Assembly: GCF_038024855.1 (NCBI RefSeq)
Contig: NZ_CP139089.1
Span: 2,142,501-2,206,500 of the forward strand
DNA length: 64,000 nt
Source of the DNA: Methylocella tundrae
Lineage (GTDB): Bacteria > Pseudomonadota > Alphaproteobacteria > Rhizobiales > Beijerinckiaceae
Reading direction: 5' to 3'
Part shown: piece after piece, positions 31,039 through 41,361 of the stretch
How the letters are laid out: each line of letters starts with the position of its first letter
Numbering within the stretch: position 1 is the first letter of the stretch
Position numbers and translations under genes: made by a program
The notes under the pieces: generated by a model
What the model was told of the DNA's origin: nothing
Databases searched by the model: none
What the model saw: the letters and a program-made list of their open reading frames with translations, nothing else

Positions 31039-31713
31039 TTAGTATGCGCCGCTCGAACCAAAAACAACGGGCAGGGTGCGTATCAGTATCTGTGCGTCCA
31101 ACGCAAGCGACCAATGCTTCGCATAACAAGCATCGCAAGCCACGCGTCTCCGATAGGTTGTGTTGCTTCTCCCGCTGATCTGCCAAAGCCCGGTGATTCC
31201 CGGGCGGCAAATCAGATAGGCTTGGCGCCGGACGCCATATTTCGTGAGCTCTTGTTCGACAATCGGCCGTGGTCCGATAATGCTCATCTCCCCCTTCAGG
31301 ACATTGATGAGTTGAGGCAATTCATCGACACTGGTCTTTCGCAGCACTTTTCCAAAGGCGGTGACCCGCGGGTCGTTACGCAGCTTCCGCGTCGACTCCC
31401 ATTCAGCGCGCGCCTCGGGATGCGTTTCCAGATAGTCACGAAGCACGCGATCTCCGTCACGTACCATCGTCTGAAATTTGAGACAATCGAATGATTCACC
31501 ATGAAGACCCAGTCGACGATGGCGGAAGAGAATCTTGTCGCGCGACACTGCCAGTATAGTGATTGCACACAGCAGCAATATCGGAGACAGCAGAATAAGT
31601 CCTATCGTCGCCAGGAAAATATCCAGGCCACGCTTCCCCGCTCCGCCGACCGGGCGCTGTTCGACGGTGAGGGAAAGTTCGATCAATCCGCGTGAACTCG
31701 TTCCGCTCGACAT
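31039..31713 (-). CDS. Initiating sugar-phosphate (polyprenyl-phosphate) transferase, ExoY/WbaP type
   Basis: The 224-residue protein starts polysaccharide assembly by moving a sugar-1-phosphate to undecaprenyl phosphate at the inner membrane. It has one membrane helix (about 31-55), FDCLKFQTMVRDGD (75-88), the catalytic pair D130-E131 in TSVDELPQLINVLKGEMS, IGPRP (146-150) and RPGITGLWQISGR (170-182), all hallmarks of the family. Its short size fits the ExoY/PssA class without the large N-terminal domain. It is the last gene of the leftward operon rfbF-SDR-methyltransferase. Whether glucose, galactose or another sugar is transferred cannot be read. Confidence 0.93.
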   Translation of the reverse strand: MSSGTSSRGLIELSLTVEQRPVGGAGKRGLDIFLATIGLILLSPILLLCAITILAVSRDKILFRHRRLGLHGESFDCLKFQTMVRDGDRVLRDYLETHPEARAEWESTRKLRNDPRVTAFGKVLRKTSVDELPQLINVLKGEMSIIGPRPIVEQELTKYGVRRQAYLICRPGITGLWQISGRSNTTYRRRVACDACYAKHWSLALDAQILIRTLPVVFGSSGAY

Positions 31714-31782
31714 CGATTCACCAGCTCGTTCTTCCTACCGTCTGGAATATGCCCGTCGCAATGGACCGTTCGAGCCGACGGC

Positions 31783-33030
31783 TTACACGATTCGCGGTGT
31801 GGGGATTGGGATAATGAATTTGCCCCCGAGCGAGCGATAAGCCTTCTGTTGAGAGAGGATCTCGTCGGCAAAGTTCCAGGCGAGCAACAACACGTAGTCG
31901 GGGCGAAGTTCCGTAAGGGCTTCCACCGGCTTGATCGGCAGCCATTGCCCCGGCATATATTTTCCATGTTTATGGATGTTTCGGTCTACCACGAAGTCGA
32001 CGAGATTTCGTCCGATGCCGACGGTATTTATCAGGGTCGCGCCCTTGGCCGCGGCGCCATACGCAGCGATCGTGGCGCCCTTCGACTTTACATCATTCAG
32101 AAGCGCCAGAAGATCGCGTTTCAACACGTCGACCTTGTTCGAAAATCCGCGAAAATAGTCGACTGAATCGACGCCGCGGTTTTTTTCGTACGTCAGTTGC
32201 CCGCGCACCGATTGCCCTACACGCTCCTCCTTTTCCACGTAAAGGCGCAATGAGCCGCCATGAATTGCAAGCTGCTTTACTTCGTTAAGATAAAGCCCGT
32301 GGCGGCGGAACAGCCGGTCCAGCGCCGTGACGGAGAAGTAACACAGATGCTCATGGTAGATAGTGTCGAACTCACAATGCTCGGTCAGCGACCAGACATA
32401 AGGCACTTCGATAACGGCGACGCCATCTTCCTTGAGCAGCCGAGCCATCGCCGCGACGAAGCCATTGGTGTCGGCGACATGGGCAAGCACGTTATTGGCG
32501 TGGATCACATCCGCTTGCACGCCCTCTTGCCGCAGAGCGTCCGCCAGATCCCGGGTGAAGAATGCGCAACGCGTAGGCACGCCGATCTTCTCCGCGGCGG
32601 CGGCCGGGCCGTCAGCGGGATCGATTCCAAGGACCGGAATGCCCGCCTCGACATAGTTCCTCAACAAATAGCCATCATTGCTCGCCAATTCGAGAACGAA
32701 GTTGTCCGGTCCGAGGGAACGGCTTTGGATCAGATCGGCGGCGTTCTGGCGAGAATGCTCCAGCAGCGCCGGCGAGAATGAAGAATAGTAAGGATAGGAA
32801 TCGGCGAAAAGAATTGCGGGGTCGACGGTTTCGGTAATTTGCACGAGGCTGCAATCCTCGCAAAATGCCACGGACAGCGGGAAATAAAGCTCGGGCCGAT
32901 CTTGATCCGCCTTCGTAAGGAGACGATCCGCGAGCGGCGTTTCGCCGAGGTCGAGAAATGTCTCAAGTTTATTTCCGCCGCAAGATCGGCAGGCATGCTC
33001 GGTCAGCGAGCGCTGGCTCACGTCGGTCAT
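31783..33030 (-). CDS. NDP-sugar C-methyltransferase-like protein (copy 2)
   Basis: A 415-residue protein with an N-terminal zinc site (C14, C17, C57, C60), SAM motif [15 protein letters not shown], a YEHLCYF-like [15 protein letters not shown] segment, and the C-terminal [15 protein letters not shown] domain. This is the full signature of TylC3/NovU-type C-methyltransferases that methylate C-3 or C-5 of keto-deoxy-sugar nucleotides. GGAG precedes the ATG. It sits 23 bp after the SDR gene in the rfbF operon, so its substrate is probably the CDP-sugar made there. Confidence 0.88.
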
Positions 33031-33053
33031 TACCGCTCCATTTCGGTATGAGT

Positions 33054-34100
33054 TCAGGCAATCGCGCGCGACATAGCGGGCAAGCGGCGGAGATCTTCGC
33101 CCAGTTCGCCGACGCGGATCAGTTTTTTGACATGTGCGATTCGTTTAAAGCGCTCTCCTTCGAAATCATCCAGGCTGAGGCCCGACGAGCAATAGGCGTC
33201 GTAGAGCTGTTCGACGCCGCGCCGCGCCGTCCATTGCGGTTTGAACGAATGCAAATGCCTGGCAATGTGGTTGCAATCGACGCGATAGCACCGCGTGTCC
33301 GGCCCCGCGCCCGGCGCAAATTCAACCTGGCAATTGGGAACCACCGAGCTCACTATATCCGCTATTTCGACCATCTGGTAGTTTTCGGTTGTCGAGCCGA
33401 CATTGAACGCCTTGTTGTGGATCAGCGAACGGTCAGCCTCGAGCGCGGCAGTGTAGGCCGCCGCGATATCCTCAACATGAACTATCGGACGCCACGGCGT
33501 GCCGTCGCTCTTCAGATAAACTTGGCCGGTGGTGAAAGCCCACGCCGTCAGGTTGTTAAGGACAAGATCGAAGCGCAGGCGCGGCGACAGGCCGTAAGCG
33601 GTCGACGCCCGCAAGAAGGTCGGGCTGAACGCCTCGTCGGCCATGAGGGAGACGGCGCGCTCGACGTTTACCTTTGACGCGCCATAGGGCGTCACCGGAT
33701 TGAACGGCGCGCTTTCGTCCAAAAACTCGGAGCCGGAAGCCCCATATGTGCTGCAAGACGAAGCGTAGAGAAAACGCGGCACGCCAGCCTGCTTGGCGAG
33801 CGCGGCCAGATCGACGGACGCCTTGAAATTGATCTCATTGGTCAGTTCGGGACGGTAGTCGCCGAGGGGATCGTTGGAAAGACCGGCGAGATGAATGATC
33901 GCGTCAAAACCGATCATATCGTCTTTACCGACGTCGCGAATATCCTTCTCGATCGTGGGGATTTCCGCGAGATCGCCGGCGAAGGTGCAGGCGCGATAGA
34001 TATCGCTGTCTAGCCCGGTCACGTCGTGACCCCGCTCGAGCAGGTATGGAGTCAACACGGCTCCGATGTAGCCTCGATGGCCAGAGAGCAGGACCTTCAT
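33054..34100 (-). CDS. NAD-dependent epimerase/dehydratase (extended SDR)
   Basis: A 348-residue extended short-chain dehydrogenase. The NAD loop GHRGYIG lies at residues 7-13, HLAGLSNDP and SSCSTYG follow, and the catalytic Y-x3-K is YGASK near 139-143. [13 protein letters not shown] and the C-terminal ALNVG-like [13 protein letters not shown] are also present. It should oxidise, dehydrate or epimerise a nucleotide sugar. Its start overlaps the rfbF stop by four bases (ATGA). Position between rfbF and a C-methyltransferase suggests it makes the keto sugar that is then methylated; dehydratase versus epimerase cannot be decided by eye. Confidence 0.85.
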
Positions 34101-34873
34101 CGCTCACTCCACATTTTCCAGGGCGCCTGCCCGCTGTCCCAAATCTTTTGCAAAATGTGTTTTTCCCTCAGCGTGTCCATGCACTGCCAGAACGACTCGT
34201 GACGGAACGCCATCAGTTGTCCATCCGCCGCGAGCCGCTGGAGCGGCGCATGCTCGAACATGACATCGTCGCCATCAATGTAATCGTCGACGCCCGGTTC
34301 GAGAACGAAGAAGGCGCCGTTGATCCAACCCTCCGCCGTCTGTGGTTTTTCGGTGAATTCCACCACGCGGTCGCCATCGAACTCGATATGCCCGTAACGC
34401 GCGGGGGGCCGCACCGCGGTCATTGTCGCAAGCTTGCCGTGAGACTTATGGAAGGCGAGAAGCTTGTGGAGGTTGACGTCCGAAAGGCCGTCTCCCCAGG
34501 TGAGCATGAAAGGCCCGCCGCCCATCCAGGCAATCAGCCTCTTGATGCGGCCGCCGGTAAGCGTAGCCTGCCCCGTTTCCACGAGATCGACTGACCAGGG
34601 AGGCGCGGAGGTGTCATGCCGCTTTACGCCGCCCGTCTGAACATGCAGGGTCATGCTGCCGTTCAGCGAACAATAGTCTGCGAACCACCGCTTGATGTAC
34701 TCACCCTTGTAGCCAAGAGCGATGGCGAACTCGCGATGGCCATAGTGATAGTAGTGCATCATAATGTGCCACAAAATCGGCATCCCGCCGATTTCGACCA
34801 TGGGTTTCGGTCGAACATCCGTTTCTTCAGCTAATCGGGTTCCGGCCCCGCCCGCGAGAATTGCGACCTTCAC
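34097..34873 (-). CDS. rfbF: Glucose-1-phosphate cytidylyltransferase
   Basis: The 258-residue nucleotidyltransferase makes CDP-glucose from CTP and glucose 1-phosphate. It has the opening AILAGGAGTRLAEETDVRPK (4-23), the PMVEIGG continuation, and FMLTWGDGLSDVN with its metal-binding aspartate. GHIEFDGDRVVEFTEKP and NGAFFVLEPGV also match RfbF and its normal length (about 257). The start is GTG at 34873 with GAGAGGTG upstream. It heads the leftward operon rfbF-SDR-C-methyltransferase-sugar-phosphate transferase. No gene of the CDP-glucose 4,6-dehydratase (RfbG) name could be recognised separately. Confidence 0.92.
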   Translation of the reverse strand: MKVAILAGGAGTRLAEETDVRPKPMVEIGGMPILWHIMMHYYHYGHREFAIALGYKGEYIKRWFADYCSLNGSMTLHVQTGGVKRHDTSAPPWSVDLVETGQATLTGGRIKRLIAWMGGGPFMLTWGDGLSDVNLHKLLAFHKSHGKLATMTAVRPPARYGHIEFDGDRVVEFTEKPQTAEGWINGAFFVLEPGVDDYIDGDDVMFEHAPLQRLAADGQLMAFRHESFWQCMDTLREKHILQKIWDSGQAPWKMWSER

Positions 34874-35269
34874 GCGTTCACCTCTCGGTTGTCGCTCAAA
34901 GCGCGGGCAAAAAGCTTACCCGCCAATGCTACGTTCAAGATGTTTTGGCATGGCTTATGTCGTCGGATAACGCCGCTTTAATCAAGTGTCGGAATATGCT
35001 GAGTTCTGTAGGCCGGCGAGCCATCCGGAAGATACGTATTGATACAGACAATACTGGCGCTCCCGCTCCGATTAGTACTTACCGATATTATCCGTATTTT
35101 CCGGCAGACGGCAGAACGCGCCCCGCCTAAATAATTGGCTAGCGGTGAATACGAATTTTGTGTACAAATTGCATATTGCATAGCAGCAAAAATAATAATT
35201 ATTGAAAGTTATCAGTACTGATAACTTTCATGGCAAGTCTTCAGTTACAGATGGAGGGCGTCGATTAAG
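34874..35269. other. Divergent intergenic region
   Basis: About 395 bp between the rfbF operon and the hybrid sensory gene, which diverge, so both promoters should lie here. It is AT-rich towards the right, contains the tandem 7-mer ATTGCAT at about 35169-35182, and carries the 28-bp palindrome. No gene is seen. Confidence 0.5.
35203..35230. promoter_or_regulatory. Perfect 28-bp palindrome, candidate operator
   Basis: TGAAAGTTATCAGT is followed directly by its exact reverse complement, ACTGATAACTTTCA, with no spacer. The right arm ends 39 bp before the start codon of the hybrid kinase. A spacerless, AT-rich dyad without a following T-run is more like a binding site for a dimeric regulator than a terminator. 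The LuxR-type output domain of the gene next to it is an obvious but untested candidate binder. Confidence 0.6.
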
Positions 35270-38200
35270 ATGGAGCCCTTACGGACGAATGTAACGTTGC
35301 CGCTTATTTCTGTGGCGCCGGCGGAGGCAGAGGAGGGCCTGATTGTAGTCGGCGTTGGCGCGGGCGTCGGCGATCTCGACGCACTCCTGCATCTTCTCTC
35401 CGTCGCGCCGAACATAGACGGAATGTGCTTCGTGCTGATCCATCGTTACGAGAGGAGCGACGACATCATCGCCCTTCTCGAGCGGCGCGTCTCGACCCCG
35501 GTGGTTGAAATCGCAGATGATATGCTGCTTCGGAGCAATCACATTTATGTCGCTCCGGCTGACGTCTATGTGGGACTCCGCCACGCGGCATTTCGTGTCG
35601 AGCCCCGCGATCCGTCGCATAAGCTCGGTTCGCCGTTTGACTATTTCCTTGGCGCCCTCGCCAGTGAATATGGCGTGCGCTCGATTGCCGTCATTCTGAG
35701 CGGCATGAGCGATGACACAGACGCCGGATCAAGCACGGTCAGCGAGAGAGGCTGCCTCGTCGTCTCCCAGGATCATTGTCGCCTTGGGAACAATGGGCCG
35801 TCTCATCGCACAGACGCCGGGTGCGCAGCGGATCTGGTGTTGCCAGTCGAGCGAATTCCCGACCTTCTTCTCTGGCTGAGCGTGGCGAACAAACGCCGCG
35901 GCCTCGGCCCTTCGGCCGTCGGGACGCATCCCCTTGCGCAGATCTTCCGCCATTTGAGCGGGACCACCCGGCGCAATATTCAGTCCTACAAGGACGCCAT
36001 TTTATTGCGCCGTGTGTTTCGGCGCATGACAACGCTCGGCATCACGGATCTGACCCGCTATCTCGGGTCCCTTAAAGGGCCGTCAGACGAACTGCATCTG
36101 TTGGCGAAGGACATGCTGATCCACGTCACCAGTTTCTTCCGCGATCCCATATCGTACGACTTCCTGGCGAAAACGGTCATTCCAAAGCTTGTCCGCCAGC
36201 ATCCGCGAACCGACCCTATTCGGATCTGGGTCGCCGGCTGCAGCACGGGCGAGGAAGCTTACTCCATCGCCATTCTTTTTTTCGAGGAGATATTGCGAAC
36301 GAAGCGGGATTTGAAATTGCAGATATTCGCTTCTGACGCCAGTGAGGAGGCTATCGCCCGCGGCCGCGCCGGTTTTTACTCTCACTCCATACGACATCAG
36401 GTATCGGGTCCGCGCCTCAGGCGCTTCTTCAGCAAGGAAGCCGAGGGCTATCGCGTGATCCCGCGGCTTCGCGAATCGATCCTCTTCACTGTTCACGATC
36501 TGATGACCGACGCGCCGTTCTCGCGGCTCGACATGGTTATTTGCCGCAATGTGCTGATCTACATGCGGAGGGAAATACAGGAAACGATTTTATCGCTGTT
36601 CCATTTCGGGCTGAGGGAGCGAGGGATTTTTTTCGTGGGAGTTGCCGATACGATCGGCGCCTACGGCAGCGGTTTCAAGCCCGTCTCCTACGCCCATCGG
36701 ATCTTTGAGCGCACTGGCGGTCAGCAAAGGCGCCCCCTGCTGTTGCCGCTTAGACGCACCATGGAGGGCTCTCAGATAATGCCGGCGAGACTCGAACGCG
36801 AGATTTCCACAACTGTTCTTCGTGAAACGACGCAACAGCTATTGCTTCAGACCTACGCCCCGGCTTCGATTATGGTCAACCACCGATACGAGATCCTTGA
36901 CTATACCGGACCGATCGAGCGGTACTTGAAAATCCGCCATCCCGAGGCGGGCTGCGAACTGGCCTCCGTGCTGCAGGACGGCGTCCTCCCAAATGTCCAG
37001 GCCGCCCTGCGGCGCGCGGTCCACCAGGGAGGCGCCTCGACTCTTCTCGGCGCAAAAGTGGAACGGGACGGGCGATCGGTCTCGGTCGTTATATCGGCGC
37101 AACCGGTCCCAATAGACGACAAGGAATTGCTCCTCGTCACTTTCAGCGACAAATCAGACGAGCAATGCGGCGATCAACTCGCGCCAGCAGAGGAGCAACA
37201 GTCCCTTCTGAACATCCAGCTTGAAGAAGAGCTCGTTTCGACACGCAAAAGGCTTGAGATAACGATCCGCGATCTGGAACTCGCGAACGAAGAGCTGCTC
37301 ATTGCAAACCAGGAGGCGATGTCCGTCAACGAGGAGCTCCAGTCGATGAACGAGGAGCTCGAGGCGTCCAAGGAAGAAATGCAATCGCTCAACGAGGAGC
37401 TGATGATCCTCAATCAGCAGCTCCAGGACACAGCGGAGCAGCAGAGAAACAGCGCGATCGATCTGCGCAACATATTGAATAGCTCCGATGTCGCGACGCT
37501 TTTCCTCGATGGCAAATTCAATATTCGCTTCTTCACCCCTCCCGCGAAGGCGCTCTTCGGCCTGATCGCTTCCGACCTCGGACGGCCGCTCGCGGATCTT
37601 GCGCGCCGCTTCACCGACGACCGCCTTCTTGACAACGCGCGATCCGTGCTCGCCAATTTGCTGCCAAGCAAACGCGAGATTCTCACAGAGGACGGTCACT
37701 GGTATCTACGAAAGATTACACCTTACCGCACCGACGAAGGTCGAGCGGAGGGCGTCGTGATCACCTTCGCCGACATCACCGAAGTTAAGCTCGTCGAGCG
37801 CGATATCCGCGCCGCTCACGCCTTCGCCGAAAGCGTGGTCGAGACCGTGCGCGAACCACTGATCGTGCTCGACAAAATGCTCGCCGTGAGCGTTGTCAAC
37901 AAGGCTCTTCGCGACCTATTTGGCGCGGACGCTCGGCAATTCATCGGCCTCGCTTTGGCTGATACGCCGGCGCGCCAGCTCGCGCCGCTCATGCAAAATA
38001 TCCTTGACGCCGAACGTGATGGCTATGGGCATGTCGAGAATTACCGCATCGAGATCGACATTCCGTCGAGAGGTCGCCTGACGCTCAGGATGACGACGCG
38101 CGGAATCGGCGGCAACACGTCGGCTGCGGGAATGATCCTCCTCGTTTTAGAAGATGTCACGGAAAAGGAACGGGTCGAACATGGGTTGATGGCCGCCAAA

Positions 38201-39994
38201 GAGGGATCGGAGCAAGCCAATCTGATCAAATCCCAATTTCTGGCCGCGGCGAGTCACGATCTGCGCCAACCGCTTCAGAGTCTGCGCCTGCTGTCCGCGA
38301 TCCTCCAGCGCAAGCTGGATGACGAAGAAGCTCTCAAGCTAAATGCAAAATGCGGCGAGACGATTGACTCGATGATCGGCGTCGTCAATGCGATCCTCGA
38401 CATCAATCAGCTGGAAGCGGGCGCCATTCGACCGATAATGCAGAGCTTTCCCGCGAATATGCTGCTCAATAAGCTTCACTCTGAATTCAACGTTCTGGTG
38501 CAGGCAAAAGGGCTGAGGTGGTGGGTCGCGAGTTGCAATCGTAACCTGCGAAGCGATCCACGATTGCTCATGCAGATTCTGCGCAATTTAGTCAACAATG
38601 CAATCAAGTTCACCGCTTCCGGCAAACTCGTCGTTGGCTGCCGGCGACGCGGCGACAAAGTCAGCTTGGAAGTGTGGGATTCAGGGCCCGGCATTCCGGA
38701 CGCCGATATTGAGAAAATGTTTGATTTTTTCCATAAGGGCGAAGCGACTCCGCCGGGGACTGATGAAGGATTGGGTCTTGGCCTCGCCATTGTGAGAAAC
38801 CTGTCGGAGATCCTCGGACATGAAATCAAGGTCGTCTCGCATGTGGGCAAGGGCTCATGCTTCTCCGTTCTCGTGCCGATTGGCGCTCAATCAAATGGAG
38901 ACCCTGTTGCGCTGGACGGCGGCCATAGGGCTGTCGCCAGGCAGCGCGGCGTCCGTATCCTCGTCGTTGAAGACGAACCCTGCGTCCGTGAAAGCCTGGA
39001 GCTGCTCTTTGCCGACGAGGGACATTTTATTGCTTCCGCCACGAGCGGCGGGGAGGCAGTGAGATTGGTCAGTTACGGCACGTTTCGACCGGAGATCATC
39101 GTTGTTGATTATAGCATCCCGGGCGGTATGTCGGGCCTCGACGTCATTGACGAAGTTCGCGCCATCCTCGGTCAGCAAATCCCCGCCGTGGTGTTGACAG
39201 GTGATATTTCTTCCGCGACCTTCGCCAAGATCGCGACGCGCTCCGCCATCCATCTCGCCAAACCTGTGCGAGCCGACGAACTCTTGGACACAATCCATCG
39301 ATTGCAGACAAGGACGCCGCCTGCCCGGCCGATATCGCCGCCGGGCTCGGAGCTCGACACGCCGGCAGATAGCGCATCCGCTGAAACCATTGTCGTCGTT
39401 GATGACGATGCCTGCGTGCGCGACTCTATTCAGCAGCTTTTAGAAAGCTACGGTCACAGGGTCGCGACCTATGCAAGCGGTCAGCTCTTTATCGACTCCA
39501 AAGGCGCAAATTCGGGCAGATGTCTCATTCTCGACGCGCGCATGCCAAGCATGGACGGTTTTGCAGTCCTTGCCAACATCACGAAGAGGGGCATTCATCC
39601 ACCGGCGATAATGATCACGGGTCATGGCGACGTCCAAACAGCAGTGAGAGCTATGAAAGCCGGCGCATTCGACTTCATCGAGAAGCCCGTGGACGCCGAC
39701 GCGTTGCGCGCCAGCGTCGAACGCGCTCTTCGGGCGGCTACGAATTCTCAAGATCATATTTCGCAGTGCGCCACCGCGGCCAGGAATGTCGCCCGTCTGT
39801 CCAAGAGGCAACGCGCGGTGATGGATCTCGTCGTATCCGGACACGCCAACAAGGTTATCGCCAATCGTCTCGGGATTGGCCAGCGTACGGTTGAAAGTCA
39901 CCGCGCGGCTGTCATGAAAAAGCTGGGGGCGAAGACATTCGCCGATTTGATACGTTTCGCCCTTGCCGCGCCTCAGAGCCCTGACACGAACTGA
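35270..39994 (+). CDS. CheB-CheR-PAS-histidine kinase-REC-REC-LuxR hybrid sensory protein
   Basis: A 1574-residue cytoplasmic protein containing a complete phosphorelay. Approximate order: CheB-like domain 23-205; CheR methyltransferase 225-480 with its SAM loop at 321-329 (VAGCSTGEE); PAS-like 515-620; long coiled coil 645-720 rich in NEEL repeats; PAS 733-840; PAS 845-960; HisKA with H996 in ASHDLRQP; HATPase 1085-1205; receiver 1 with D1280; receiver 2 with D1422 (LILDARMPSMDG); FixJ/LuxR helix-turn-helix 1509-1570. In the CheB part the catalytic serine of the GASAGG motif is glycine (GAGVGD, G32), while H58 and D149 remain, so methylesterase activity is doubtful. There are no membrane segments. 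It probably controls transcription directly, plausibly of the surrounding polysaccharide genes. Confidence 0.92.
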   Translation: MEPLRTNVTLPLISVAPAEAEEGLIVVGVGAGVGDLDALLHLLSVAPNIDGMCFVLIHRYERSDDIIALLERRVSTPVVEIADDMLLRSNHIYVAPADVYVGLRHAAFRVEPRDPSHKLGSPFDYFLGALASEYGVRSIAVILSGMSDDTDAGSSTVSERGCLVVSQDHCRLGNNGPSHRTDAGCAADLVLPVERIPDLLLWLSVANKRRGLGPSAVGTHPLAQIFRHLSGTTRRNIQSYKDAILLRRVFRRMTTLGITDLTRYLGSLKGPSDELHLLAKDMLIHVTSFFRDPISYDFLAKTVIPKLVRQHPRTDPIRIWVAGCSTGEEAYSIAILFFEEILRTKRDLKLQIFASDASEEAIARGRAGFYSHSIRHQVSGPRLRRFFSKEAEGYRVIPRLRESILFTVHDLMTDAPFSRLDMVICRNVLIYMRREIQETILSLFHFGLRERGIFFVGVADTIGAYGSGFKPVSYAHRIFERTGGQQRRPLLLPLRRTMEGSQIMPARLEREISTTVLRETTQQLLLQTYAPASIMVNHRYEILDYTGPIERYLKIRHPEAGCELASVLQDGVLPNVQAALRRAVHQGGASTLLGAKVERDGRSVSVVISAQPVPIDDKELLLVTFSDKSDEQCGDQLAPAEEQQSLLNIQLEEELVSTRKRLEITIRDLELANEELLIANQEAMSVNEELQSMNEELEASKEEMQSLNEELMILNQQLQDTAEQQRNSAIDLRNILNSSDVATLFLDGKFNIRFFTPPAKALFGLIASDLGRPLADLARRFTDDRLLDNARSVLANLLPSKREILTEDGHWYLRKITPYRTDEGRAEGVVITFADITEVKLVERDIRAAHAFAESVVETVREPLIVLDKMLAVSVVNKALRDLFGADARQFIGLALADTPARQLAPLMQNILDAERDGYGHVENYRIEIDIPSRGRLTLRMTTRGIGGNTSAAGMILLVLEDVTEKERVEHGLMAAKEGSEQANLIKSQFLAAASHDLRQPLQSLRLLSAILQRKLDDEEALKLNAKCGETIDSMIGVVNAILDINQLEAGAIRPIMQSFPANMLLNKLHSEFNVLVQAKGLRWWVASCNRNLRSDPRLLMQILRNLVNNAIKFTASGKLVVGCRRRGDKVSLEVWDSGPGIPDADIEKMFDFFHKGEATPPGTDEGLGLGLAIVRNLSEILGHEIKVVSHVGKGSCFSVLVPIGAQSNGDPVALDGGHRAVARQRGVRILVVEDEPCVRESLELLFADEGHFIASATSGGEAVRLVSYGTFRPEIIVVDYSIPGGMSGLDVIDEVRAILGQQIPAVVLTGDISSATFAKIATRSAIHLAKPVRADELLDTIHRLQTRTPPARPISPPGSELDTPADSASAETIVVVDDDACVRDSIQQLLESYGHRVATYASGQLFIDSKGANSGRCLILDARMPSMDGFAVLANITKRGIHPPAIMITGHGDVQTAVRAMKAGAFDFIEKPVDADALRASVERALRAATNSQDHISQCATAARNVARLSKRQRAVMDLVVSGHANKVIANRLGIGQRTVESHRAAVMKKLGAKTFADLIRFALAAPQSPDTN

Positions 39995-40158: not shown

Positions 40159-41361
40159 TCAATGCGATTTCAGCATCGATTGACAGATGCGCAGAATCTG
40201 CGCAGTCCATTCGTCGAAAGATGGAGAAATCATTGCATGGGCCCGCGACGCCCGCCGGCTCAGCTCCCCGGTCCGGCCATCGTCAGCGTAGAGATCGTCG
40301 ACCGCCTTGAGGATAGAGGCCTTGTCGACGGCCGGCAGGACCACTCCGCATTGATGGGTTCTGATGTCGGCGGCCACCTGAGCCTGACTGCTTATAACGA
40401 CAGGGACGCCAGCGCCCAGCGCCTCCAAGGCCGACAGTCCGAAGGTTTCGCGGACCCTTGACGGCATGATAAGCAGGCGAGATCTCTCCGCCGCCCGGCC
40501 GATTGTTTCGTGGGACTGGAACCCGTGCGCGATGATGTTCGGCGCCGGCGGAAAACGGATCTCCCCCTCGCCGAACATATTCAAAGTCCATGGGCGCTCG
40601 CGAAGAGCGTCTACAAGGACATCGACGCCCTTCTCGGTCGTCAAGGTTCCTACATAGAGAATCTCGCGATTATGTTCGGCTTTGACCGGGACCGCTGTGA
40701 ACGGCTTGGAAGGGTTGCGCACAACGCTGATGGATTGCTCAGCTATGCCCCCCCTGGCCAGATATTTGACCATTCCTTCATGGACGACGATGATGCGGGA
40801 GCCGTTGAGGTCAACGTTCCAATTCAACCGCCGCATCGCGCCCATGCCGGTTCGCCAGATTTTTTGCATATAATTTCTTTTGTCGCATTGCGTTGCGAAG
40901 CAAGACAGCGAAAGCGGCGCGCGCTCGCAGGGTTCTCCATGGCCAAAATCGAAATAGCCTCCATTTGGGCAGGCGAGAAAATAGTCGTGAGCATAGACGA
41001 GGACGCGTCTCGATACTCGTCGAAGCGCCGCAAAAATTGAAGGTGAAAGGATTTGAGACCACGAGTTAATAATATAAACGGTGTCTGGCGTGTCAGTTTG
41101 GTCGATCAGTTTGGTGACCGCGGCATGCGCCGCCGTATTAAACAACCCGCGGAAGACGCCTATCCTCGGATCGGTGAGAAGAAGCTTTTGTTGATTCAGG
41201 GAAACGACAGAAATGTCATCCGCTAAACCGCCTTCGTACGGTTCCCCTGCAAGAACTTTAACGGGAATGCTTTGCGCCGCCAGCAACTGAACAAGATCAA
41301 CGCCAACCCTAGCGGCGCCGCCTTTTGGGGCGATAAAATCGCACATAAAAACGATTCGCAT
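40159..41361 (-). CDS. GT4-type glycosyltransferase
   Basis: A 400-residue GT-B enzyme. The opening RIVFMCDFIAPKGGAARVGV contains the donor-site glycine loop. REILYVGTLTTEKGVDVLVD starts the C-terminal domain, and the motif PSRVRETFGLSALEALGAGV carries the two conserved glutamates. A cysteine-bearing insertion (CPNGGYFDFGHGEPCERAPL, then CFATQC) near 130-160 recurs in some exopolysaccharide glycosyltransferases. It is the only leftward gene right of the hybrid kinase, ending 164 bp after the kinase stop. Donor sugar unknown. Confidence 0.88.
   Translation of the reverse strand: MRIVFMCDFIAPKGGAARVGVDLVQLLAAQSIPVKVLAGEPYEGGLADDISVVSLNQQKLLLTDPRIGVFRGLFNTAAHAAVTKLIDQTDTPDTVYIINSWSQILSPSIFAALRRVSRRVLVYAHDYFLACPNGGYFDFGHGEPCERAPLSLSCFATQCDKRNYMQKIWRTGMGAMRRLNWNVDLNGSRIIVVHEGMVKYLARGGIAEQSISVVRNPSKPFTAVPVKAEHNREILYVGTLTTEKGVDVLVDALRERPWTLNMFGEGEIRFPPAPNIIAHGFQSHETIGRAAERSRLLIMPSRVRETFGLSALEALGAGVPVVISSQAQVAADIRTHQCGVVLPAVDKASILKAVDDLYADDGRTGELSRRASRAHAMISPSFDEWTAQILRICQSMLKSH

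Follow-up and report, generated by a model that had tools for sequence, protein, structure and literature searches.

A one-chain CheB-CheR-PAS-histidine kinase-FixJ fusion of Methylocella tundrae with a degenerate CheB domain and a candidate built-in methylation helix

What does a protein that joins chemotaxis-type adaptation domains to a histidine kinase and a DNA-binding output do within a polysaccharide locus of a methanotroph? The question arises from a single open frame (35270-39994, + strand, ATG start; product of 1574 amino acids) in the stretch of 64,000 nucleotides of Methylocella tundrae analysed here and called the window (GCF_038024855.1, contig NZ_CP139089.1, positions 2,142,501 to 2,206,500). 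A second M. tundrae genome carries a protein 98% identical, and 24.7 kb around the gene in the named M. tundrae contig are colinear with the window, with DNA identity of 95-98%. The dN/dS ratio between the two copies was 0.11 for the whole gene, indicating that the gene is maintained. By domain, and with few changes behind each value, the ratio was 0.16 for CheB and 0.30 for receiver 2, and the kinase, receiver 1 and the helix-turn-helix (HTH) had no amino-acid changes.

Pfam placed CheB, CheR, PAS_10, a second PAS, HisKA, HATPase_c, two Response_reg and GerE in this order, which bears out the string of CheB, CheR, PAS, coiled coil, histidine kinase, two receivers and FixJ-type HTH claimed in an earlier note on this DNA. 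The whole gene (35270..39994, + strand, as are all its parts) is best described as CheB(pseudo)-CheR-PAS-methylation-type helix-PAS-PAS-HK-REC-REC-FixJ HTH. The CheB-fold domain (aa 27-199; 35348..35866) and the CheR methyltransferase (aa 223-470; 35936..36679) were delimited by Pfam, alignment and model, the CheR match itself covering aa 286-470 and CheR_N (aa 223-269) scoring under its Pfam cut-off. A weak PAS-like domain at aa ~514-627 (36809..37150), missed in the earlier note, is indicated by predicted secondary structure, by a sub-cut-off match to PAS_10 (E=0.0022, 19.1 bits, cut-off 22.1) and by the model, which matches tandem-PAS folds in this segment. One predicted helix (aa 649-738; 37214..37483; H629-718 in model numbering, +20) is followed by PAS_10 (aa 732-837; 37463..37780) and by the second Pfam PAS (aa 854-965; 37829..38164), which the protein has in common, in alignment A1, only with L001-L004. 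The NahK/ErcS-like histidine kinase (38228..38881), with HisKA at aa 987-1051 (H996) and HATPase_c at aa 1096-1204, receiver 1 (D1280; 38960..39304) and the FixJ-like receiver 2 (D1422; 39389..39718) were identified by Pfam, NCBIfam and alignment, the better of the two Response_reg stretches being aa 1374-1483, and a GerE/LuxR HTH (Pfam, aa 1509-1564; 39794..39961) ends the chain. H996, D1280 and D1422 had been placed rightly, since all three lie inside the aligned conserved H-box and receiver motifs. In an AlphaFold2 model covering residues 21-850 and built from 26 sequences (mean pLDDT 75.7, pTM 0.49), both the CheB and the CheR fold are retained and a helix of 90 residues runs between PAS-like folds; at so low a pTM the model does not give the relative placement of the domains.

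In the model the CheB domain keeps its fold, with a TM-score to 3sft of 0.82 (by target length); its nucleophile is lost, which the earlier note had missed. In both M. tundrae copies the GASxGG motif reads GAGVGD, with Gly32 in place of the serine. The catalytic-His column is occupied by Arg59 in the alignment with relatives, with His58 one residue before, and phmmer against distant solved CheB domains pairs His58 with the catalytic His; Asp149 is kept. The catalytic histidine is thus ambiguous but the lost serine is not, the Ser-His-Asp set of a CheB methylesterase is incomplete, and the domain is very probably inactive in the M. tundrae protein, judging from its sequence. Among 37 aligned sequences Ser and His each occupy their column in 34, the exceptions being the M. 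tundrae pair and L029, a Salipiger fusion whose CheB likewise departs from both columns in the alignment. Both residues are kept in the aligned full-string relatives whose N-terminus is present.

The CheR domain has intact SAM-binding and CRNxxIY-type motifs and a CheR fold in the model (TM-score 0.87 by target length to 5ftw), as expected of a methyltransferase. Behind it, the coiled coil carries three tandem chemoreceptor-type methylation consensus sites (aa 685-706; 37322..37387, + strand), found by pattern match and alignment and also missed before. The pattern [ASTG]xx[EQ][EQ]xx[ASTG], a degenerate one, starts at aa 685, 692 and 699, in exact 7-residue register, with E689, E696 and E703 as candidate methyl acceptors. 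Methylation sites in E. coli receptors are likewise spaced by 7 residues. The heptad-spaced Glx-Glx consensus of methyl-accepting chemotaxis proteins (MCPs) is therefore present; the MCPsignal domain of those proteins is absent from the Pfam scan, and the kinase here lies in the same chain rather than being CheA. The site comparison with chemoreceptors draws on PMC8396549.

Chance and composition were considered in turn. Shuffling the 96-residue segment gave three tandem copies in 8 of 200,000 shuffles, and among 105 Glu/Gln-rich non-fusion open reading frames (ORFs) none had three tandem sites and one had two. When 2578 stop-to-stop ORFs of at least 250 aa from the loci collected were divided by CheR signature, three or more tandem sites occurred in 147 of the 150 ORFs with the signature versus 4 of the 2428 without it; three of these four match the fusion and the fourth begins at a locus edge. 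A search of 60 family genomes, the source genome included, gave 20 helix matches, 19 of them behind CheR in the same gene and the remaining one cut by a contig start. The helix thus accompanies CheR wherever the gene is complete in the sets tested. L175, a relative without CheB and CheR (G350:C69:8554-11064; 900 aa, PAS-PAS-HK-REC-REC-HTH), is also without the methylation-type helix.

Most of the 37 aligned sequences are from Pseudomonadota; going by record titles, Planctomycetota, Verrucomicrobiota and Bacteroidota contribute one apiece. The Glu pairs and the Ser beside them hardly vary across the set: E689, S692, E702, E703, E709 and E710 are found in all 37. The number of tandem sites is at least four in 34 of the 37, two in L170 and three in the M. 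tundrae pair, in which Ile stands for a small residue. The helix is shorter by exactly 7 residues in L072 and by exactly 14 in L008, the pattern expected of indels in whole heptads. Since these counts come from homologous fusions, they express how well the sites are conserved and how regularly they accompany CheR, and are not independent trials. We infer that the helix would be the substrate of the attached CheR, and methylation of the protein's own helix has, in our estimation, somewhat less than an even chance of being correct.

The earlier note held it unusual to find the kinase, both receivers and the transcription factor on one CheB-CheR chain, which the genome survey contradicts. With the source genome included in each set and no more than the 2 to 5 best candidates scored in any genome, so that the counts are lower bounds, one frame of more than 1400 aa with both halves was found in at least 8 of 99 genomes of the family, at least 6 of 199 of the order (the CheB of G167 being shown by alignment) and at least 4 of 240 of the class, and at least nine of the 79 genome-contig loci listed are full-length or nearly so. 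On plasmids, 16 of 136 matching records cover at least 80% of the query, one of them with the string divided between two genes, and Betaproteobacteria are among them (Caballeronia, together with a record labelled Roseateles); thirteen of the 16, all except H3, H10 and H12, were read record by record. In a Methylocapsa polymorpha plasmid (L161, 8917-13197) two genes share the string, one for CheB and the other for everything from CheR to the HTH. G089 carries, 8.9 kb from its full-string copy, a second CheB-CheR fusion of 1344 aa and other architecture (L135, 15592-19626). The architecture is a recurrent type, not a rare one.

Full-string relatives in Xanthobacter, Rhodomicrobium, Methylocystis, Methylocapsa, Caballeronia, Rhizobium and others are 37-44% identical to the M. 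tundrae protein and differ from it in keeping the CheB Ser and His wherever the N-terminus is aligned, and several have a CheY-like regulator nearby. CheB-CheR-PAS fusions at large, which plasmid records name 'chemotaxis protein CheB' or 'CheR family methyltransferase', share CheB, CheR, the Glu-rich helix and PAS_10 in the same order, identity over this portion being 30-44%; many have a length of about 1000-1200 aa and end before or within the kinase, whereas here a histidine kinase, two receivers and a FixJ HTH are added and the CheB nucleophile is lost. Our searches of the open-access PMC literature gave no paper listed as describing this domain string or a substrate for a CheB-CheR fusion, and an earlier description is possible. 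The available portions of PMC8396549, PMC2577667, PMC4618731, PMC9239204, PMC10767990 and PMC3447774 state no methylation substrate for such fusions; in those portions PMC8396549 counts cheBR fusions in Geobacter, and PMC4618731 tabulates Azospirillum histidine kinases with CheB and methyltransferase domains, neither giving a mechanism.

The kinase half has the H-box, N and G boxes and receiver Asp of a hybrid histidine kinase. Against the NCBIfam model NF041832 (NahK/ErcS), aa 981-1343 scored 331.7 bits, under the cut-off of 400, and NF041831 gave 269 against a cut-off of 1500; the FixJ model NF006900 gave 234.9 bits for aa 1371-1567 (cut-off 255), although the REC and GerE domains each pass Pfam. 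Kinase and receiver at 981-1343 thus resemble NahK/ErcS hybrid kinases, from which the protein differs in its N-terminal half and in the added FixJ output. FixL-FixJ systems share the PAS-kinase input and the REC-HTH end, with the difference that here kinase and regulator are on one chain. A His-Asp-His-Asp relay requires an HPt domain between the receivers. The Pfam scan detected none in the 1574-aa protein, and the family search of the genome returned one match, in a 741-aa frame of a che cluster that is presumably CheA. Beside that frame, about 180 kb from the gene, lie the one MCP match of the genome and CheR- and CheB-like matches. The description of the protein as a complete phosphorelay, which overlooked the missing HPt, therefore does not stand; that the usual chemotaxis genes are missing from the surroundings does, as no further match to CheB, CheR, MCP or HPt turned up in the window when the genome was searched with the protein and with the MCP and HPt families. 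By analogy with FixL-FixJ, direct transfer from H996 to D1422 would be the simpler reading, and a phosphate route from kinase to receiver 2 to DNA is probable.

The gene was correctly reported to lie between leftward polysaccharide operons, such genes being present on both sides. A divergent CDP-sugar operon (31039-34873, - strand) adjoins it and comprises, all on the - strand, genes for a glucose-1-phosphate cytidylyltransferase (34097-34873), an epimerase/dehydratase (33054-34100), a C-methyltransferase (31783-33030) and a sugar transferase (31039-31713), and a glycosyltransferase gene (40159..41361, - strand) is convergent. Polysaccharide genes span about 17-48 kb of the window, with a GC content of 0.54-0.59 versus 0.59-0.65 outside, and the fusion gene has the same low GC. 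The congeners G040 and G076 keep the RNase J/biotin ligase/nuo side with 66-90% identity; of the window genes tested to the left of RNase J, none matched the stretches read of their RNase J-side flanks (about 9 kb to the contig end in G040, about 34 kb in G076). In G040 a cytidylyltransferase and a C-methyltransferase are present elsewhere, and its own full-string relative, about 42-44% identical, adjoins genes for a CheY-like protein, a FabI-like enzyme and an acetate kinase. At 1e-100 G076 yielded no match.

Between the cytidylyltransferase gene and the fusion gene lies a perfect 28-bp palindrome (35203..35230), identical in the other strain and ending 39 bp before the ATG, a candidate operator. 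About 0.02 such palindromes would be expected in 4.4 Mb (single-base arithmetic, equal bases). A genome search that allowed up to three mismatches found its 18-bp core a single time, and no repeat of the palindrome was found at other island promoters. It could be an operator of the fusion protein or of another protein, or a leader hairpin (z = -2.9), and, should the fusion protein itself bind there, it would point to self-regulation rather than to control of the island. Sites resembling AATACGnAT occur in the same divergent intergenic region at 35032, 35090 and 35147, spaced by about 57-58 bp; the pattern was rejected as a motif, being not enriched in the window (9 found versus 12.6 expected). 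A search for a common motif upstream of 29 family loci was equally unproductive, no inverted repeat clearly exceeding 20 shuffles (the best, with 4-base arms, in 5 of 29 loci; shuffle maximum 4).

Relatives of the protein do not always sit in polysaccharide loci, a point that the earlier note, which suggested a dedicated regulator of the polymer, had proposed to check. Probing with 13 proteins from the polysaccharide region of the window, which detect only relatives of window proteins, gave one glycosyltransferase match in each of 2 of 22 other loci and a cluster in 3 of 13 plasmid loci, so that 3 of the 35 other loci had a polysaccharide cluster and 32 had none by these probes; the counts are lower bounds, several loci ending close to the gene and some sharing a genome. 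Control CheB-CheR fusions without the full string had one polysaccharide-type match in 22 of 54 loci versus 2 of 22 for the full string, a control set that is mostly Mesorhizobium and hence not used as a base rate. Pfam on 134 of the 138 called genes of at least 150 aa within 5 kb (four long ones omitted; the caller may include false genes) matched three to a glycosyltransferase family. The full string is not enriched near polysaccharide genes.

In 7 of the 13 plasmid records the surroundings of the gene hold P-type ATPase, Dps, CsbD, universal stress protein, acetate kinase, phosphoketolase, oleate hydratase or PRC-barrel genes. Stress or energy neighbours are less clear in an eighth, one record places the gene among transposases, three place it in polysaccharide loci and one is unannotated; neighbours of the stress and energy type also recur around the gene in other genomes. 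A CheY-like regulator is near the gene in several plasmid records and in six loci of five further genomes. In L135, L136, L137, L138, L141, L162, L163, L164 and L166 a gene for a single CheY-like receiver lies a short way from the fusion gene and on the other strand; in M. tundrae the cytidylyltransferase gene takes its place.

The three polysaccharide-linked plasmid records are those of Rhizobium sp. Y9, Agrobacterium pusense and Roseateles sp. XES5, in which the leftward side holds genes for a response-regulator transcription factor and for cytidylyltransferase-type, methyltransferase (C-methyltransferase-like) and epimerase-like proteins. In a tree of 1194 columns covering CheR, PAS, kinase, receivers and HTH (the CheB part and the long, cut or incomplete L188, L197, L196, L174, L118, L120, L170, L146 and L180 being omitted), these three form a group apart from M. 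tundrae with support of 89/98. A single clade of all polysaccharide-linked members was rejected on these columns (AU p = 1.5e-9; p = 0.0003 without Roseateles) and not on the kinase-to-HTH part alone (p = 0.55). The kinase part did not reject a grouping of M. tundrae with L002-L004, the relatives with two PAS domains (p = 0.80); the branch leading to Methylocella is long and its exact sister is not fixed by the tree. If the longer alignment is trusted, the association with polysaccharide genes would have arisen at least twice, since one origin is rejected, and two separate associations, taken as a raw count, would favour a link between gene and polysaccharide. The shared cytidylyltransferase, methyltransferase and epimerase set is no proof of common origin, because the M. 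tundrae epimerase-like protein is closer to Sinorhizobium meliloti plasmid genes (77-79% identity) than to the Agrobacterium one (55%); the identity to the plasmid genes suggests transfer.

These observations admit other readings of the helix and of the phosphate path. The helix may be an ordinary, unmethylated coiled coil between PAS domains, with CheR and CheB acting in trans on chemoreceptors or persisting as relics and the protein working as a large FixLJ-like one-chain regulator, an alternative that we consider quite possible. Glu-rich helices and coiled coils are common linkers that often join PAS domains to kinases, the one MCP of the genome could be a client of CheR, and CheB is already degenerate in M. 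tundrae. That MCP, however, has CheR- and CheB-like matches of its own beside it, and a mere linker would not readily explain exact heptad Glu pairs flanked by small residues and kept across Pseudomonadota and three sequences of other phyla, their presence with CheR wherever the gene is complete, or the outcome of the chance and composition controls. A true four-step relay, from H996 through D1280 and the histidine of a partner HPt to D1422, is improbable: both receivers keep their Asp, and Pseudomonas NahK-type kinases do work with a separate HPt, yet here the protein has none and the only match in the genome is in the CheA-like frame.

As to the locus, the protein may be a general regulator of stress or energy state that entered the island by insertion or hitch-hiking and does not control it, for which we would allow roughly one chance in three. 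The stress and energy neighbours of relatives, the low GC that the gene shares with the island and the lack of matches between tested genes left of RNase J and the RNase J-side flanks read in two congeners agree with this reading, whereas the divergent arrangement with the CDP-sugar operon and the separate group of the same family in polysaccharide loci with cytidylyltransferase-type, C-methyltransferase-like and epimerase-like genes speak against it. Control of the adjacent polysaccharide operon by the fusion protein is, on balance, an even question.

The reading that we prefer is that of a sensor, kinase and transcription factor on one chain with built-in chemoreceptor-style adaptation parts, in which CheR would tune the protein's own signalling helix; we hold it with a confidence that stops a little short of even. 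The PAS domains flanking the long helix would receive a signal, probably cytoplasmic, redox or metabolic, and the NahK-like kinase would autophosphorylate at H996 and pass the phosphate directly to D1422 of the FixJ-type receiver 2, which, once phosphorylated, would activate the HTH. Receiver 1 (D1280) may be a modulator or phosphate sink and not a relay step, given that the only HPt found is CheA-like. CheR would methylate E689, E696 and E703 on its own helix or on that of a dimer partner, setting the kinase gain, and relatives with an intact CheB would reverse this methylation. In M. tundrae, with the nucleophile lost, the CheB domain may be structural or regulatory, and resetting would be lacking or depend on another source. 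The protein's own promoter and the divergent CDP-sugar/polysaccharide operon would be the likeliest targets.

The more interesting part of the M. tundrae protein is the pair of CheR and helix together with the decayed CheB. Kinase-bearing CheB-CheR fusions are common and are labelled as chemotaxis proteins. We propose, tentatively and with the odds against us, that CheB-CheR-PAS fusions are one-chain 'receptors with memory', in which CheR (and CheB) would reversibly methylate an in-protein chemoreceptor-like helix, so that adaptation would tune a histidine kinase and gene expression without chemoreceptor, CheA or CheW, and that the M. tundrae version has lost the eraser CheB and been taken into a polysaccharide island. 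If the built-in helix is the substrate, methylation adaptation would be a portable unit fit to be joined to a histidine kinase, and a role open to testing would replace the label 'chemotaxis protein'. The version with a dead CheB would make it possible to examine what adaptation does when it is write-only.
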